NCBI RefSeq assembly: GCF_003675855.1
Contig: NZ_RCIH01000008.1
Coordinates: 124,001 to 188,000, forward strand
Length of the DNA: 64,000 nucleotides
Origin: Halostella salina
Lineage (GTDB): Archaea; Halobacteriota; Halobacteria; Halobacteriales; Natronoarchaeaceae
Reading direction: 5' to 3'
Positions 34,161 to 47,810 of the stretch are shown in pieces. Position 1 is the stretch's first letter, and every line of letters begins with the position of its first letter. The notes beneath the pieces are model-generated. The model had not been told where the DNA came from. It saw nothing but the letters and a program-made list of their open reading frames with translations, and ran no database searches. The position numbers were made by a program, and so were the translations under genes.

Positions 34161-34458
34161 TAGTTAGTACACCACTGTATAACTGTAGGTCGTACAATAT
34201 AAGTATCGTTTGTGTAAATTTGGTAGTACCAGGTCAGTTATACCACGGTCGCCGGTGGCCCGTCGGCTCGGGAACCCGTCGGCGGCCACCGGCTCGCAGG
34301 GGTTCCCTCGAGGGCTAACACGAACACGTTCGACAGAAGGACTTTGATCACCACTCGGACAGATCAAACCGTATGTATTTAGGCAAGCCTAAAAACTCAC
34401 TGGGGCTGAGACCTCGTGAACTAGCATCGACGGCCACCAGTACGGGAGGTACCGGCCG
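34161..34458. other. Divergent intergenic region with hairpin and palindromic operator
   Basis: About 300 bp without a gene. It contains AT-rich promoter sequence for the dehydrogenase (34170-34210), an inverted repeat GCCGGTGGCC (34251-34260) / GGCCACCGGC (34284-34293) enclosing a smaller CGGG-AA-CCCG hairpin, and the TTAGG-N4-CCTAA site described separately. A ribosome-binding site GGGAGGT (34444-34450) precedes the next ATG, so the metal-operon mRNA has a real leader. Confidence 0.5.
34379..34392. promoter_or_regulatory. DtxR-like palindrome (TTAGG-N4-CCTAA) at the metal-transport operon promoter
   Basis: TTAGGCAAGCCTAA is a perfect 5-nt-arm palindrome (6-nt arms if the outer T and A are counted) that overlaps a TATA-like TATTTA at 34377-34382. 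Half-sites TTAGG/CCTAA are those of metal-dependent DtxR/IdeR-type repressor boxes. The same TTAGG-N4-CCTAA arrangement occurs twice before the NifU-domain gene near 39.9 kb. The downstream operon carries a ZIP metal transporter, so metal-dependent repression is a reasonable inference. Confidence 0.6.
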
Positions 34459-34713
34459 ATGATCCGCGAGCACGTCCACCACCTCCACCACGCGATCGAC
34501 GACCAGTCGCTGCCGGTGCGGGGTGCGATAACCCTGGGTGCGCTCCTGGCGCTGCCCCTGTTCGGAACTGCCGTCCGAACCCTCGGAAGCGCGCTGGGGC
34601 TCGGTCGGCTCGTGTTTCCGCTGCTGGTCCTCGCGCACGTCCCCGTGGTCGTGGCGCTGATCGCCGTCTGGTCGATCGGCTGTGACGTCTGCCGGACAGA
34701 GGGGTCCGCATGA
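34459..34713 (+). CDS. Small two-helix membrane protein with His-rich start and CxxC end
   Basis: This 84-residue protein starts MIREHVHHLHHAID, giving a cluster of histidines before two hydrophobic helices (residues about 23-42 and 50-74). It ends CDVCRTEGSA with a CxxC on the far side. The GGGAGGT sequence 9 nt before the ATG is a clear ribosome-binding site. Its stop overlaps the cupin ATG (ATGA). The His cluster and CxxC suggest metal contact; this is inference and no family was recognised. Confidence 0.7.
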   Translation: MIREHVHHLHHAIDDQSLPVRGAITLGALLALPLFGTAVRTLGSALGLGRLVFPLLVLAHVPVVVALIAVWSIGCDVCRTEGSA

Positions 34714-35093
34714 CGGCGACGGACTTCGACGCAGAACGCACCTACGGCGACGGCCAGTTCTCCGCCGTCCAGGTGTTCGAAAGCGACCGGATGAAAATCG
34801 TCTGCGGGTACTTCGAACCGGGCCAGTTCATTCCGGTGCACGCGCCGGCAAGCGACGTGGCGATCCACGTTCGGTCCGGCACGGGCATAGTCCGGGACGG
34901 GGACGACGAACACCGGGTCGACCCCGGTGACGTTGTCGTCGTCGCAGCGAACGCTGACCGCGGCGTGAAAGCCGACGCGGACGAGCGGCTGGAGGCGCTG
35001 CTCGTCACGGCACCGCCGCCGACCGACGCCGAGCACGACCCCGTTCGGAAGGGACTTCGGACCGGACAGTTCGATCCGCTCGACGACGGGTGA
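34710..35093 (+). CDS. Single-domain cupin protein
   Basis: This 127-residue cupin has the beta-barrel motif with PVHAPASDVAIHVRSGTG near residues 37-54 and DPGDVVVVAANADRG near residues 71-85. Only two histidines remain in the metal-binding region (H39, H48), so metal binding may be partial. It is coupled to the upstream membrane gene and precedes the ZIP transporter by 96 bp. It may act as a small sensor or metal-buffering protein in the same operon; no enzymatic role can be assigned. Confidence 0.78.
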   Translation: MTATDFDAERTYGDGQFSAVQVFESDRMKIVCGYFEPGQFIPVHAPASDVAIHVRSGTGIVRDGDDEHRVDPGDVVVVAANADRGVKADADERLEALLVTAPPPTDAEHDPVRKGLRTGQFDPLDDG

Positions 35094-35188
35094 CCGGTTT
35101 CCGCGGCGGGCGTTCCGGGACGTGAGTAGCTTCAAGAGTCCGGGCGTCGACAGGTGACCCAACCAATGACCGCTCCCGGGTGGCGCGG

Positions 35189-36016
35189 ATGGTAGCCGAG
35201 CAGTTCGTCGAGCTGTTCGGCAGCGATCCGGTCGTCCACGGGTTCGTCGGCGGCCTGTTCATCGCGACGCTGAACCTCGTCGGCGCGTCGCTCGTGTTCG
35301 TCTGGCGGAACCCCTCCGAGCGGTCACTGGACGGCGTGCTCGGCTTCGCCGCGGGCGTGATGCTCGCCGCCAGCTTCACGAGCCTGATCATCCCCGGGAT
35401 CGAGACGTACTCGGGCGGTGATCCGATCCCCGTGCTGCTTGGCGTCGCGCTCGGCGCGGTGGCGCTTGACCGGTCCGACGTGCTCGTCCCCCACGCACAC
35501 TATCTCGTCACCGGGCGGCGACGGACGGACGCCGCGAACCCCTCGGAGAGCCTCCCGGTCGACGACAAACGGCTCGCGGGCGTCGTGCTGTTCGTGCTGG
35601 CGATCACCATCCACAACATGCCCGAAGGGCTCGCCGTCGGCGTCGGCTTCGGCAGCGGCGACCCGGCCGCCGCCATCCCGCTCATGCTCGCGATCGGGAT
35701 TCAGAACATCCCGGAGGGGTTCGCCGTGTCGGTCGCCGCGGTCAACGCCGGGCTCGACAGGCGGTTCTACGCGGCAGTCGCAGGGATCCGCGCGGGCGTC
35801 GTCGAGATACCGCTGGCCGTGCTCGGCGCGTTCGCCGTCCAGCGGGTGTCCGCGCTGCTCCCCTACGCGATGGGGTTCGCTGCGGGCGCGATGCTGTTCG
35901 TCATCAGCGACGAGATCGTCCCCGAGACCCACACGCGGGGCAACGAGCGGGTCGCCACGCTGGGTACGATCCTCGGCACGATCGTGATGCTCTATCTGGA
36001 CATCGCGCTCGCGTAG
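35189..36016 (+). CDS. ZIP-family divalent metal transporter (GufA-like)
   Basis: This 275-residue ZIP protein has about eight transmembrane helices and the paired metal-path motifs HNMPEGLAVG and QNIPEGFAVS. It should import or equilibrate Zn2+, Fe2+ or Mn2+ across the membrane. It starts at ATG 35189; a GTG at 35180 would add three residues. It is the third gene after the TTAGG-N4-CCTAA site, which suggests repression when its metal is plentiful. The specific metal cannot be deduced. Confidence 0.87.
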   Translation: MVAEQFVELFGSDPVVHGFVGGLFIATLNLVGASLVFVWRNPSERSLDGVLGFAAGVMLAASFTSLIIPGIETYSGGDPIPVLLGVALGAVALDRSDVLVPHAHYLVTGRRRTDAANPSESLPVDDKRLAGVVLFVLAITIHNMPEGLAVGVGFGSGDPAAAIPLMLAIGIQNIPEGFAVSVAAVNAGLDRRFYAAVAGIRAGVVEIPLAVLGAFAVQRVSALLPYAMGFAAGAMLFVISDEIVPETHTRGNERVATLGTILGTIVMLYLDIALA

Positions 36017-36063
36017 GGCGTCCGGTCGAAAGCTCCATGGTCCTCACACGCGTCCATGGGAGT

Positions 36064-36438
36064 ATGAGTTCCGACGACAGACCGACCGTCGAAGACGTGA
36101 TGTCCTCGCCGCTGGAGACGATCCCCGCCGACGCCACGGTGATGGAAGCCACCCAGCGGATGCGCGAGAAGGACATCAACGCGCTGGTCGTGCCGACGAC
36201 GCCACGGGCCATCATCAGCAGTACGGACGTGCTGGACGCCGTCGCCGACGGCCGTGACGTGACCGAACTGGCGGTGAGCGACGTGATGACGACCGACGTC
36301 GAGACCGCCGCGCCGGACCTCTACATGGAGGAGGTCGCCGCGATGATGACCACGTACGGGATCAAACACCTCCCGGTCGTCGACGACGACTACGTTGGGA
36401 TGATCTCCTCGACAGACGTGACCGCGCATCTGTCCTGA
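36064..36438 (+). CDS. Tandem CBS-domain protein
   Basis: This 124-residue protein consists of two CBS motifs (VEDVMSSPLETIPADATVME and VSDVMTTDVETAAPDLYMEE) forming one Bateman module. Such modules bind adenosine nucleotides or S-adenosylmethionine and regulate partners. It starts at the ATG for MSSDDRPT, 48 nt after the ZIP gene, so it may be expressed with that operon. Confidence 0.85.
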   Translation: MSSDDRPTVEDVMSSPLETIPADATVMEATQRMREKDINALVVPTTPRAIISSTDVLDAVADGRDVTELAVSDVMTTDVETAAPDLYMEEVAAMMTTYGIKHLPVVDDDYVGMISSTDVTAHLS

Positions 36439-36531
36439 CCGCCGTCGGGGGCGACTTCACCGACCCGAGAGATCCGGCCGGTAGAGACGTTCCCTAACGT
36501 TTATTGGCTGTGCCCCGGTCAGGTCAAACGA

Positions 36532-37299
36532 TTGATGTCCCTCCGAACCCCCTCCAACCTCCGGGGTAAGCGGCCGACGGTCCGGTCCGTCGTCGGCGTG
36601 CCGTTCCGGGCGCAGACCTACAAGAACCTGCTGTACCTGGCGCTTGCGTTCCCGCTCGGGCTCGCGTACTTTATCGCGCTGTCGGTCGGGCTGTCCCTCT
36701 CGCTGGCGATGATCGTCCTCGTCGTCGGCGTGCCGTTGACCGCGCTCGTGCTGGTCTGTGCGGTCGGCGCTGCCCGGTTCGAATCGATACTGGCGAGCGT
36801 GCTGCTCGGCGTGGACATCGACACGCCCGAGCGAGTGTGGCTCCGCGAGGAAGGGGTCCTGACCCGCGCGAAGGGCCTGTTCCTCTCGGTGAACACGTGG
36901 AAGGCCGTGCTGTACCTCGCGAGCAAGTTCGTCGTGGGGATCCTCTCGTTTATCCTCCTGCTGACGCTGTTCGTGACCAGCGGCACGCTGATGGCCGTCC
37001 CGCTGTTCTACGACCAGCCCGGCGTCCACGTCGGTCTCATCATGCACGGGCCGGTCCAGTTGACGCCCTCCCTGTACGTCCCCTGGGATAGCCTGCTCAT
37101 CGGCGTCGAAACGGTGGTGACAATCACCTCGTGGGAAGTGACCACCCTGCCGCAGGCGCTGTTGATGTCGCTGCTGGGCTGTTGTCTCCTGCTCGCCGCC
37201 ATGAACGTCACGAACGCCTTCGCCTGGATCACCGGTCGCTACGCGCAGTTCATGCTCGGCGAGGCGTCGGTCAACCCGGTCGTCGACAGGGATATCTGA
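36532..37299 (+). CDS. Putative-sensor-domain membrane protein (paralogue)
   Basis: This 255-residue membrane protein shares the QTYKNLLYLALAFPLGLAYFI segment (residues 24-44) and helix pattern with the protein at 24218-24955. It has four to five hydrophobic helices and no attached output domain. A different C-terminal helix, ending ITGRYAQFMLG, parallels LNWLAETGAA in the other copy. Function unknown; the conserved family name 'putative sensor' comes from fusion to kinases elsewhere. Confidence 0.75.
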   Translation: MMSLRTPSNLRGKRPTVRSVVGVPFRAQTYKNLLYLALAFPLGLAYFIALSVGLSLSLAMIVLVVGVPLTALVLVCAVGAARFESILASVLLGVDIDTPERVWLREEGVLTRAKGLFLSVNTWKAVLYLASKFVVGILSFILLLTLFVTSGTLMAVPLFYDQPGVHVGLIMHGPVQLTPSLYVPWDSLLIGVETVVTITSWEVTTLPQALLMSLLGCCLLLAAMNVTNAFAWITGRYAQFMLGEASVNPVVDRDI

Positions 37300-37306
37300 C
37301 CGACGG

Positions 37307-37471
37307 TCAGCGACCCCACTCGTAGAACCACCACGCCGCGCCGAACAGCAGCAGCCCCGCGCCGAGCACGGACGTCGTCGGTTCGGGAACGACGAACAGC
37401 ACGAACCCGACGAGAAGCACCGCCGTGGGTTCGATCTCGTTCCAGTACTCGCTCCAGGTCGGTAGCGCCAT
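37307..37471 (-). CDS. Short two-helix membrane protein
   Basis: This 54-residue protein starts MALPTWSEYWNEIEP, followed by two hydrophobic helices (residues about 17-31 and 34-49) and a basic end EWGR. It converges on the sensor-domain gene with 7 nt between stops. The composition and length are typical of small haloarchaeal membrane proteins. No named family recognised. Confidence 0.6.
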   Translation of the reverse strand: MALPTWSEYWNEIEPTAVLLVGFVLFVVPEPTTSVLGAGLLLFGAAWWFYEWGR

Positions 37472-37547
37472 ACGCTGTGGACCACGTGGAGGCGGAAAAA
37501 ACGGAACCGTGGGGATCGGTGACACCCGAAAGACCGAGCGGCCTGTG

Positions 37548-37973
37548 TCAGCGGACGACCGTCACCGGGACTTCCGACCGTCGCATCACCGACTCCGCGA
37601 CGCTGCCGAGCAGGAGCCGTTCTATCCCGTCGCGACCGTGGCTCCCCATGACGATGCCCTCGGGATCGTGCTCCTCGACGTAGGAGATGATGGCGTGTCG
37701 GGGCCGGTCGACTTCCGTGAGCGTCGTCAGTTCGGCGTCGTACTCCGCGGCGATCTCGCGGGCGCGGTCGTGGATCCCGTCGGCCCGTTCCTTGGCGCTC
37801 TCGTACCACTCCTCGCCCATCGGCACGGTCTCGACGTTCGCCGGGTACGCCGCCTCGACCGGGTCGATGACGTACAGCGTCGTCACGGAGTCGTCGGGGA
37901 AGTGCTCCAGCGCGTATTCGAGCGCACTGTACGACAGCGGCGACCCGTCGATCGGGACCAGAATATCCGTCAT
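37548..37973 (-). CDS. Universal stress protein (UspA)
   Basis: This 141-residue single UspA domain opens MTDILVPIDGSPLSYSALEY and ends with the nucleotide-binding pattern GSHGRDGIERLLLGSVAE. The start is the ATG at 37973; upstream residues in frame are not conserved in the family. It stands between the small membrane gene and the recombinase gene, all on the minus strand, with no evidence of a shared function. Confidence 0.88.
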   Translation of the reverse strand: MTDILVPIDGSPLSYSALEYALEHFPDDSVTTLYVIDPVEAAYPANVETVPMGEEWYESAKERADGIHDRAREIAAEYDAELTTLTEVDRPRHAIISYVEEHDPEGIVMGSHGRDGIERLLLGSVAESVMRRSEVPVTVVR

Positions 37974-38045
37974 GGATCGACCTACACGGAGGGATGACAA
38001 GTATCTGGCTCCGCGACCGATGAGCAACCGGCGGGACCGACGCCG

Positions 38046-39164
38046 TCACTCCCCGTCGATCTCCTCGAACGCGTCCGTCATGCGGTCGGCCATGTCGCCG
38101 GCCTCGATGTGGGAGTAGTGTTCCCGGACGATCTCCTCCGAGTTGTCGAGCGCCCGCGCCGCGGCAGCGTGCCCGAAGGTTCGGACCAGTACCTCGCCCG
38201 CGCCGCGCCGCGCGCCGTGGGGCTGGAGGTAGTCGTTGTCGTCGTCGAGGTTGATGTCGGCCTCGTCACAGAGTCGACGAAGTATCCGGCGTCCGGCGTC
38301 CGTCGTGATCGACGGCGGGGCCACGTCGAGCGCCAGGCACGTCTCGAACACCGTTCGGTCGGCTCGGGCGTCGGCGATCGCCGCGTCGTCGTACCCGCGA
38401 TCCGCGAGTTCCGTCTCGATCCGGTCGGCCAGCGTCGGCCGGTGGAACGTCGGAAACACCGGCCAGTCGTCGCTCGGCGGGTCGAGTTCAGTTCGATATC
38501 GTCGTATTGGGTTTACGACCGGTTCGGGGAGACCGCGGTCGTCGAACCGCTGTTTCTTGGCGAACACCGTCAGGTAGCGGTCGTCGAGTTCGACATCGCG
38601 CCAGCGGACCCCGTCCCGCCGGTCGTCGTTCCGGTCGGCGAGCACCTCGGCCCCACGAACCCCCGAGTACGACAGGAGGTAGACGAGCGCGCGGTCTCGA
38701 CAGGCCGCGATGGCGGCGCGGGAGTCCTCGCCGGCGAATGCTTCCCGGACGCGCTCATCGACGAACGACGTGAGCGCCCGTCGGTCCGCGGGACTCCACG
38801 CCTGCTGGTCTCCGCTCGTTCGGCCGTTCTCCGCCGGTAGCGGCTCGGTCGCCTCGCGTCGCTGGGCGATGTTCTCCGGGAGGAAGCCCTCGCGGACCGC
38901 CCAGCCGCAGAACGACGAGACGTAGGCGTAGTACGTCCGTACGGTGCCGGCTGTCCACCCCTGCCGGGCGAGCTGCCGGGCGTACGCCCGGAGGTCCGAC
39001 GGCGACAGGTCATCGAACTCGGTCGGACGGTTCTCGTCGTCGAGAAACGACACGAACCGGTCGAGTTCGCGAGCAGCGTCGCGCCGATAGTTGCCCGATT
39101 CGCCGCCGCGACCCTTTCCCTTGTCCGCGAGGAAGTCGTCGACCACGGCGTCGATCCGCGTCAC
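38046..39164 (-). CDS. Tyrosine-type site-specific recombinase / integrase
   Basis: About 372 residues from the GTG at 39164. The N-terminal SAM-like core-binding domain is followed by the catalytic domain: first Arg in SYSGVRGAEVL, a Lys in FAKKQRF, HGARRGAGEVLVR for the His-x-x-Arg box, and the Tyr nucleophile near the C terminus in VREHYSHIEAG. All catalytic positions appear present. An in-frame GTG at 39290 lies upstream of the TATA-like box and is therefore unlikely to be used. No tRNA is adjacent and no virus or plasmid genes follow, so it is an orphan of a mobile element or a domesticated recombinase. Confidence 0.85.
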   Translation of the reverse strand: MTRIDAVVDDFLADKGKGRGGESGNYRRDAARELDRFVSFLDDENRPTEFDDLSPSDLRAYARQLARQGWTAGTVRTYYAYVSSFCGWAVREGFLPENIAQRREATEPLPAENGRTSGDQQAWSPADRRALTSFVDERVREAFAGEDSRAAIAACRDRALVYLLSYSGVRGAEVLADRNDDRRDGVRWRDVELDDRYLTVFAKKQRFDDRGLPEPVVNPIRRYRTELDPPSDDWPVFPTFHRPTLADRIETELADRGYDDAAIADARADRTVFETCLALDVAPPSITTDAGRRILRRLCDEADINLDDDNDYLQPHGARRGAGEVLVRTFGHAAAARALDNSEEIVREHYSHIEAGDMADRMTDAFEEIDGE

Positions 39165-39257
39165 GGGGAGTCCCCTCCGAGAACGGTCGGTTCCGCACCG
39201 GTATCCGGTGATCCTTCCGATCGCATCGTGTTCGCTTCGGACGAGGGCAGGTGGGCC

Positions 39258-39298
39258 CTTATATTTACTCGTGCTTACCTCACTAAGCACGAGTAAAT
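39258..39298. promoter_or_regulatory. Integrase promoter with a long palindrome
   Basis: The perfect inverted repeat ATTTACTCGTGCTTA / TAAGCACGAGTAAAT (arms 39263-39277 and 39284-39298, 6-nt centre) overlaps the TATA-like AAATATAAG (39258-39266 on the minus strand) that drives the recombinase. A protein bound here would block the promoter, as in autorepression by integrase or an accessory regulator. It could also be a recombinase recognition site. Confidence 0.6.
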
Positions 39299-39299
39299 G

Positions 39300-39926
39300 T
39301 ATTCCACAGAGAAAAGGCGTATGTGGGTCTGTTACGGCGGGAAACGTGGTTTTTCAGATTTATAAAGTTCATAGTGATATACCAAATTGTCCACGCCCCC
39401 GGTACAAAAACGAGAACGGCGCGTCGTACCCGAGACCGGTCGGATACCCTGAACGCTGATACGCCTCCCCGTCCGATCCGACAACGATATCCGTTCGATG
39501 CTCACCGATACCCCCGGAATCCACCACATCACAGGGGATGATCGGGTCGTTCATAGAACAACTCAGTGAACAGTCGCGTTCGTAACCCGGATTCGACAGG
39601 CAGTGGGTCGGATACATCCGGGAAACTGGCGAACCACAGGACAGAAATCAGAAATATCCGAACCCAGCGTCACCGACCGACCCACGATACGTATCGTCAG
39701 CGAGTTGTGTAGCGCGGATCCGGGGAAGACGTGTTGCGGTCTGGACCCGTTTTTCACGCCTGATACTCCGGTACGCAACATCGTGGTCGGTCTCGCGTGT
39801 TTGCAGAGGCAGTCCCGTCGCACCGCGGCCACAAACAGGATGACGAAATCGCGGGTGCCGTTTTTAGGCGACACGAAAAATATCATAGAGGTAGTACCTG
39901 TTCTGGTATTCGCGTATGAGTGCTCT
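39300..39926. other. Gene-poor AT-richer segment
   Basis: About 630 bp with lower GC than its surroundings and no open frame of haloarchaeal composition. The longest frame on the minus strand (39563-40078) is basic and cysteine-rich, unlike real proteins here. Together with the orphan recombinase on one side and the IS-type end on the other, the segment looks like the remnant of an integrated element. Confidence 0.5.
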
Positions 39927-39964
39927 TTAGGAGCCCCTAAACACCAGTTTTTAGGATCCCCTAA
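39927..39964. promoter_or_regulatory. Two DtxR-like palindromes upstream of the NifU-domain gene
   Basis: TTAGGAGCCCCTAA (39927-39940) and TTAGGATCCCCTAA (39951-39964) are two TTAGG-N4-CCTAA palindromes spaced 24 bp start to start, within a longer direct repeat. The second lies about 10 nt before a TATA-like TTTTATG (39974-39980) that precedes the NifU ATG at 40007. The same palindrome class overlaps the promoter of the ZIP operon. Confidence 0.6.
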
Positions 39965-40006
39965 TACCACAGTTTTATGATACTTGCGGGAATATGCTGA
40001 ACTGCA

Positions 40007-40333
40007 ATGAGCGCAGAAGGGCTTGAACGACAGACGCGAAACTTCCTGAGCAACAACGTTCCGCAGATCCAGCAACACGGCGGCAATTTCGAAGTGCGTG
40101 ACGTCGACGAAGCGGCCGGAACTGCGACCGTCGCCATCGGCGGCGCGTGTTCCGGGTGTGGCATCGCCCCGATGACGATGAAAGCCATCGAGCGCCGTCT
40201 ACCCGAAAGCGTCGACGGCCTCGAAGACGTCGAGGTCGTTCGCTCGGGCGGCCCGAGCGCCGCGGTGATGCCATCGAAAACCGAGGACATGGAGGACATG
40301 GACGAGTACGAGGATTACAATCCCCCGTTCTAA
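40007..40333 (+). CDS. NifU C-terminal-domain Fe-S cluster protein
   Basis: This 108-residue NifU-like domain has the cluster-binding CSGCGIAPM motif near residues 46-54, MTMKAIERRLPE, and an acidic Glu/Asp/Met-rich tail. Such proteins scaffold or carry 4Fe-4S clusters. The only nearby partners are the two TTAGG palindromes upstream, so its expression may follow iron or manganese status, which would be unusual for an otherwise housekeeping protein. The TATA-like box lies 27-33 nt before the ATG. Confidence 0.88.
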   Translation: MSAEGLERQTRNFLSNNVPQIQQHGGNFEVRDVDEAAGTATVAIGGACSGCGIAPMTMKAIERRLPESVDGLEDVEVVRSGGPSAAVMPSKTEDMEDMDEYEDYNPPF

Positions 40334-46772: not shown

Positions 46773-47810
46773 ATGGTAACTGGAGGGTTCCTGCCCGACT
46801 CACCGGCGGTCCATATCGCGGCGATCATCGTCGCCACGGGAGTCATCTGGCTCGGGAGCGGGTGGCTGGAGGAGTCCGCCGAGCGGCTGTCGGCCTACTA
46901 CGGTCTACCGGCGGTGGTCCAGGGGTCGATCGTGGTCGCAGTCGGGTCGAGCTTTCCGGAGCTGGCGAGCGTGGTGTTCACCGCGCTGGCCGGCGTGTTC
47001 GACATGGGCGTCGGCTCGATCGTCGGGTCGGCGATCTTCAACGTGCTCGTGATCCCGGCGCTGTCGGCACTCGGATCGGAGGGGGACCTGGAGACCAATC
47101 GCACGCTCGTCTACAAGGAGGCGCAGTTCTACATGATCGCGGTGTCGGCGGTCGTGGTGACGTTCGCGCTCGCCGTCATCTACGTCCCCGTCGGCGACGG
47201 ACGGGCGCTCGCAGGGGAGATCACGCGACCGCTGGCGGCGATTCCCCTGCTGCTCTACGGGCTGTACCTGTTCATCCAGTGGCAGGACGTGAGCGACCAC
47301 GAGGCCGAGGCGTACGATGGCGAGATCGCCCTCCGTCGCGAGTGGACGAAGCTCGCTGCCGGGCTGGGCCTCATTCTGGTCGCCGTCGAGCAGCTGGTCG
47401 GCAGCGTCGACTCGCTTTCCGCGACGGTCGGTATCCCGGAGTTCCTCGCCGGCGTGACCATCGTCGCGGCGGCGACGAGCCTCCCGGACACGCTGGTGAG
47501 CGTCCGGACGGCCCGCGACGACCGGGCGCTCACGAGCCTGGGCAACGTCTTCGGCTCGAACACGTTCGACCTGCTGGTGGCGATCCCGGTCGGCGTCATG
47601 CTCGTCGGCACCCTCGCGGTGGACTTCGCCGTGGCGGTCCCCATGCTCGGCGTGCTGACGCTCGCGACCGTCGTTCTGTTCGCCTTCCTCCGGACGGACC
47701 TCTCGCTGTCGAACGCGGAGTCGTACGTGTTGCTCGCGGCGTACGTCCTGTTCGTGGTCTGGATCGTCGCCGAGACGGCCGGCGTGACCGGCTTCCTCAA
47801 AACCGGCTGA
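46773..47810 (+). CDS. Sodium/calcium exchanger-family membrane protein
   Basis: This 345-residue CaCA-superfamily antiporter has two inverted alpha-repeats. The first contains GSSFPELASVV and GSAIFNVLVIPAL; the second contains ATSLPDTLVSV and GSNTFDLLVAIPVG. Ten hydrophobic helices are expected. It exchanges Na+ for Ca2+ or other cations. The first repeat keeps its Glu, while the second has Asp in the equivalent position, a family variant. The start is the ATG for MVTGGFLPD. Confidence 0.87.
   Translation: MVTGGFLPDSPAVHIAAIIVATGVIWLGSGWLEESAERLSAYYGLPAVVQGSIVVAVGSSFPELASVVFTALAGVFDMGVGSIVGSAIFNVLVIPALSALGSEGDLETNRTLVYKEAQFYMIAVSAVVVTFALAVIYVPVGDGRALAGEITRPLAAIPLLLYGLYLFIQWQDVSDHEAEAYDGEIALRREWTKLAAGLGLILVAVEQLVGSVDSLSATVGIPEFLAGVTIVAAATSLPDTLVSVRTARDDRALTSLGNVFGSNTFDLLVAIPVGVMLVGTLAVDFAVAVPMLGVLTLATVVLFAFLRTDLSLSNAESYVLLAAYVLFVVWIVAETAGVTGFLKTG

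Follow-up and report, generated by a model that had tools for sequence, protein, structure and literature searches.

Genes and predicted elements of the locus

The window is the whole 64-kb stretch of Halostella salina DNA that we analysed; other places in the same genome are given by contig and position (C2, C5 and C10). The features of the window used in this analysis are listed below.

34321..34332, + strand: CGAACACGTTCG, box of the denitrification type that differs from CGAAYATDKTYG by one mismatch
34342..34349, + strand: CTTTGATC, putative TATA element at an inferred position, about 30 nt 5' of the ATG that opens the mini-ORF
34373..34462, + strand: mini-ORF MYLGKPKNSLGLRPRELASTATSTGGTGR, whose TGA overlaps the next ATG (ATGA)
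34379..34392, + strand: TTAGGCAAGCCTAA, predicted DtxR-type operator, in codons 3-7 of the mini-ORF
34459..34713, + strand: gene for a small membrane protein of 84 aa without a Pfam match, also in L156
34710..35093, + strand: cupin gene (PF07883), the conserved target of the promoter
35131..35138, + strand: TTCAAGAG, possible promoter element of the ZIP gene itself, suggested by TTCAA-like elements before several orthologues
35180..36016, + strand: ZIP (ZupT-like) transporter gene (PF02535), probably not a target
38046..39290, - strand: integrase-like gene adjoining NifU (PF02899)
39864..39877, + strand: TTAGGCGACACGAA, degenerate box kept 5' of NifU orthologues
39927..39940, + strand: TTAGGAGCCCCTAA, second NifU box, position poorly conserved in orthologues
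39951..39964, + strand: TTAGGATCCCCTAA, conserved predicted NifU operator, 9 bp 5' of the TATA element
39973..39982, + strand: TTTTATGATA, NifU TATA element
40007..40333, + strand: NifU-like (Nfu-type) gene, 108 aa, CxxC (PF01106)

The Pfam matches to PF07883, PF02535 and PF01106 bear out the labels cupin, ZIP and NifU that had been given from the sequence alone. The small membrane protein gene overlaps the cupin gene through a further ATGA. The NifU-like protein has the NifU domain with CxxC of Nfu-type Fe-S carriers, and its nearest solved structure by sequence is the chloroplast NifU-like protein 2 (2z51). A sigma-70 promoter scan of the window is uninformative, the host being an archaeon, and a repeat search 5' of NifU gave nothing useful.

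Exact palindromes and a probable haloarchaeal iron regulon

The sequence-only reading placed three TTAGG-N4-CCTAA sites in the window, and all three are exact where it put them: TTAGGCAAGCCTAA at 34379-34392, TTAGGAGCCCCTAA at 39927-39940 and TTAGGATCCCCTAA at 39951-39964. The motif is absent from 100 dinucleotide shuffles of the window. When up to two mismatches are allowed, the 64-kb window has 5 sites against 3.8 expected, which is the chance level, so by count the exact sites alone stand out, and the motif claim rests on the exact sites and on comparison. The genome-wide search suggested by the same reading finds enrichment, with 11 exact palindromes in the Halostella salina genome (3.74 Mb, 17 contigs), concentrated at iron genes, and none of the reversed control. 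The motif is present in every one of 80 haloarchaeal genomes, with 1070 exact sites against 99 for the reversed control, and it outnumbers the control in 78 of them. In G022 and G315, opposite to the other 78, the reversed control is commoner than the motif (9 vs 4 and 5).

The half-sites had been likened to DtxR/IdeR boxes, and the palindrome is indeed the same 14-mer as the published core, TTAGGNNNNCCTAA, a 14-bp consensus that PMC8464063 proposes as the site of a single IdeR/DtxR dimer. In our genome and five family relatives, 70 of the 71 motif sites are intergenic according to a simple ORF caller that uses a composition score; at many of the sites in these six genomes the box centre lies 10-24 bp 5' of the start codon, single box-to-start distances being possibly off because the caller is simple. 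The genes adjoining boxes include a DtxR-family gene, a FecCD permease, an ABC permease, solute-binding lipoproteins (Peripla_BP_2 among them) and a small gene that lies beside a ferritin-like gene. Iron promoters also have boxes with a CCAAA half next to exact ones. As judged from sequence, it is well supported that the three window sites belong to a DtxR-type iron regulon of haloarchaea, because sites with the TTAGG-N4-CCTAA operator core are nearly all intergenic in the family and are enriched 5' of iron-uptake genes.

Other box arrangements were seen along the way. Within 22 kb, the region C2:118999-141401 holds an asparagine-synthase-like gene, an ABC uptake system and six iron-type boxes, of which one is exact and the other five have a CCAAA half. 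A conserved gene for a 54-aa small protein (L022, L082, L069, L088, L095) has an iron-type box pair beside its start, TTAGGYCGACCAAA followed at about 26 bp by an exact box; in L022 this gene adjoins a ferritin-like gene. Paired iron-type boxes recur in the family (L072, L076, L078, L085, L099, L100 and others) with a start-to-start distance of 34-37 bp, unlike the NifU box pair of the window, which is spaced by 24 bp.

DtxR-family regulators

The regulator was expected to lie outside the window, as it does: DtxR-family genes are found at C5 and C2 instead. Three proteins of the genome match both DtxR domains to some degree, all three with PF01325.

C5:188462: DtxR-family protein with FeoA
C5:197954: DtxR-family protein, 143 aa
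C2:231293-231652: short DtxR paralogue, 120 aa, on another contig than the window

The short paralogue is preceded, at a distance of about 200 bp, by an exact palindrome. Its N-terminal DNA-binding domain (PF01325, E 4e-12) is above the Pfam cut-off, and its C-terminal domain (PF02742) scores below it. Aligned to solved relatives, it retains few of the usual DtxR/MntR metal ligands, and equivalents of His79, Glu83 and His106 are missing. As the canonical ligand set is absent, we label it DtxR-related and not a metal-sensing DtxR; it may need a partner or respond to another cue. We rejected it as the only reader of the motif. It is missing from 31 of the 80 genomes, yet all 80 have the motif, so another protein must read the wider regulon, probably a relative of the C5:197954 type, which has a match in nearly all 80 genomes. 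Idr1/Idr2, SirR and TroR of Halobacterium and Haloferax are cited as DtxR-family regulators of iron homeostasis in PMC11349517 and PMC11218638.

A box at fixed spacing 5' of the NifU-like gene

Two of the sites precede a NifU-domain gene, as the sequence-only reading said, and one of them occupies a place that is conserved across haloarchaea. A box starting 53-57 bp before the NifU ATG is found in 45 of 54 distinct promoters, which are related, so that the counts are not independent; the bases between the elements nevertheless vary. The gap between box and TATA is 9 bp in 38 of these 45, and in 43 the TATA element begins 31-34 nt 5' of the ATG, which means that NifU transcripts should be near-leaderless. 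Among named haloarchaeal NifU loci, 24/34 have a box at that position; shuffled upstream sequences have none. The right half of the box reads CCAAA in 23 and CCTAA in 18 of the 45 promoters, and both NifU boxes of the window have an unusual centre, A..C where C..G is usual. Further 5', a second degenerate element, TTAGGC-N4-CGAA, is conserved before NifU; its copy at 39864 in the window stands out despite the chance-level count because it is conserved in orthologues.

The gene itself is patchy. It occurs in 49 of 391 genomes of the class, in 21 of 86 genera. We rejected it as a core gene of the genus: it was not found in the other eight genomes of the family, own genus included (E 1e-24), yet the protein is up to 93% identical in a different family. 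In PLSDB the gene is on 24 haloarchaeal plasmids; in Halobacterium salinarum, too, a plasmid carries it. This spread, the plasmids and the integrase-like neighbour together indicate horizontal transfer of NifU. Compared with plasmid DNA, the region gives short partial matches only and no close relatives.

Orthologues of the short DtxR (cut-off E < 1e-28) are present in 37 of 40 genomes with NifU and in 12 of 40 without it (Fisher p 8e-9, for related genomes with kinship ignored), and in 26 of the 37 genomes where both occur they lie within about 2 kb of each other, in several orientations. As part of an explanation that we consider probable as a whole, the NifU-like gene would be a module that spreads horizontally, usually together with the short DtxR.

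The cupin operon and its mini-ORF

Cupin orthologues are found in 149 of 391 genomes of the class. With up to one mismatch, the box is present in 21 of 73 cupin promoters, in 7 directly before the cupin start and in 14 further 5'. In all 14 promoters that can be compared, an ATG stands exactly 6 nt before the box and opens a mini-ORF beginning M-x-L/F-G-x-P-K; iron boxes of other genes are without an ATG at that place. The stop of the mini-ORF overlaps the next start (ATGA or GTGA) in 11 of the 14, though the distance varies. The peptide is conserved at the operator part and the ribosome-binding end and not in its C-terminal half, for which reason we see the mini-ORF as a leader and not as a functional protein. 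Overlapping ATGA gene pairs can couple translation in archaea (PMC6728339). Cupin orthologues have a T-rich element at the same spacing as CTTTGATC. The 34379 site had been described as overlapping the promoter, which is slightly off: it lies just 3' of the predicted TATA, around or after the start site.

The ZIP gene, on the other hand, drops out of the picture that had the box govern a ZIP operon and so metal import. None of 30 ZIP orthologues has a box within 300 bp, and a cupin neighbour occurs only at the ZIP copy of the window. We rejected ZIP as a target on these grounds: the conserved unit is the cupin operon, and ZIP is probably not governed by the 34379 box. Transcription may read through from the cupin operon into ZIP.

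A denitrification-type box in the cupin promoter

Mutagenesis of CGAAYATDKTYG affects the nor and nosZ promoters of Haloferax mediterranei (PMC10062603). Box-bearing cupin orthologues have an element similar to CGAACACGTTCG at the same position as the window. Orthologues of the cupin adjoin nirK-like, NO-reductase-like (COX1 family) and DUF2249 genes, where nirK and NO reductase are interpretations of family-level Pfam matches and no specific model; the link of the cupin to denitrification is through these neighbours only. Elsewhere in our genome, at C10:71841-111001, CGAACACGTTCG and CGAATATGTTCG boxes cluster around a second cupin, a COX1-like protein and the gene of a nirK-like multicopper protein; this is probably the denitrification cluster of Halostella salina. 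Other CGAANACGTTCG-type boxes in the window are at 47557-47568 and, on the opposite strand, at 1525 and 57751; no denitrification gene was recognised beside these three. The word cupin is absent from both PMC10062603 and PMC11218638. Iron and denitrification signals may meet at the cupin promoter.

Proposed mechanism and alternatives

We consider it probable that the three sites serve as operators in an iron regulon which haloarchaea control through DtxR-family proteins, acting at NifU and at the cupin operon as follows. Motif enrichment, gene context, conservation, spacing and the mini-ORF are computed results, from which we infer the binding of protein to DNA, the response to metal, activation or repression, and the action of the denitrification-type box. 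Many iron-uptake genes have the box between the TATA element and the start codon, where a bound regulator would block initiation, and repression at these genes and at the cupin start region would follow from where the box lies. The NifU box, 9 bp 5' of TATA, would set the regulator next to the TFB/TBP site, and activation there would tie an Fe-S carrier to iron status; the position of the box suggests that the regulator activates the NifU-like gene, and we lean towards this. The cupin operon would be switched on through its upstream denitrification-type box, and a DtxR-type protein sitting just past the start site, in the first codons of the mini-ORF, would block its transcription, while the mini-ORF would hand ribosomes to the operon through the ATGA overlap. 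In a joint reading, a denitrification-type box and a DtxR-type operator inside a near-leaderless, translationally coupled mini-ORF would gate the cupin operon together, and NifU and DtxR would form a mobile unit in which the regulator switches on the Fe-S gene from its fixed position 5' of TATA; we put this forward as tentative and rather doubtful in its entirety. If true, it would wire iron status, Fe-S assembly and anaerobic respiration directly together.

Bacterial NfuA helps under iron starvation, and archaeal activators use a near-fixed spacing to TATA, upstream of the BRE. These two facts pull apart at NifU, the second counting against a repressive box and the first for it. Within the same regulon, the NifU box could cover the BRE and exclude TFB, so that NifU would be induced on iron starvation for an iron-sparing Fe-S repair. 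The box ends just 9 bp before TATA, adjoining the BRE, and iron-uptake genes have their boxes where a repressor would sit, but those repressor boxes lie 3' of TATA. Repression by itself is quite possible, and the fuller account with induction on starvation a little less so. The short DtxR raises another question, whether the NifU boxes are read for a signal other than metal, the paralogue having lost metal sensing and taken up another cue or become a partner of a second DtxR. The several missing DtxR/MntR ligand equivalents and the C-terminal domain below the Pfam cut-off are in keeping with this, as is the CCAAA right half in 23 of 45 NifU promoters, unlike the palindrome of the general regulon. 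We find it unlikely, however, given that the same box stands at iron-uptake genes and that CCAAA variants lie beside exact boxes in iron promoters.

For the cupin promoter, the mini-ORF might be untranslated, with an ATG that simply belongs to a longer DNA motif 5' of the cupin. Conservation limited to the operator part and the ribosome-binding end would fit that, but the ATG 6 nt before the box in 14/14, the overlapping stop in 11/14 with lengths differing by multiples of three, and the iron boxes of other genes that have no such ATG make it improbable. Much less probable still is that the palindromes arose by chance or serve an unrelated regulator. The counts in single genomes are low and the control is high in G022 and G315, but the motif is enriched in 78 of 80 genomes, and its position between genes, the iron genes beside it and its conserved spacing also speak against this reading.

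Comparison with known systems

The operator and the regulators are of a known kind. In the accessible literature, key comparative genomics aside, we found neither the NifU-DtxR module nor the fixed position 5' of TATA, nor an operator in a mini-ORF under a denitrification-type box; part of this may be known. In H. mediterranei, iron-uptake genes are repressed under denitrifying conditions, a connection left open in PMC11218638. The conserved dual-box promoter and a NifU gene with its own DtxR-related regulator make this connection between iron and denitrification testable, and the near-fixed 9-bp spacing is a natural test of how one archaeal regulator may activate or repress by position.

With the actinobacterial IdeR/DtxR boxes (PMC8464063) the sites share the 14-bp core TTAGGNNNNCCTAA and the position 5' of iron genes. 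They differ in lying in archaeal, near-leaderless promoters with TATA, in NifU variants with a CCAAA half, and in that the full 19-bp box is apparently not required. Closer at hand are Idr1/Idr2, SirR and TroR, which like the proteins proposed here are haloarchaeal DtxR-family regulators of iron homeostasis. Idr1/Idr2 of haloarchaea both repress and activate. With NfuA and the chloroplast NifU-like proteins, the NifU-like protein has the NifU domain and the CxxC motif in common, whereas the haloarchaeal form is a stand-alone protein of 108 aa, patchy in distribution and linked to a DtxR-family gene.

The H. mediterranei motif CGAAYATDKTYG (PMC10062603, PMC11218638) differs by one mismatch from CGAACACGTTCG of the window, which is just 5' of a TATA-like element, and the cupin orthologues are likewise beside denitrification-type genes; in the cupin promoter, this box is combined with a DtxR-type box. 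Finally, the ATGA-coupled gene pairs of PMC6728339 have the same overlap geometry and come from the same archaeal group, whereas here the upstream partner is a mini-ORF that carries a predicted transcriptional operator in its first codons.
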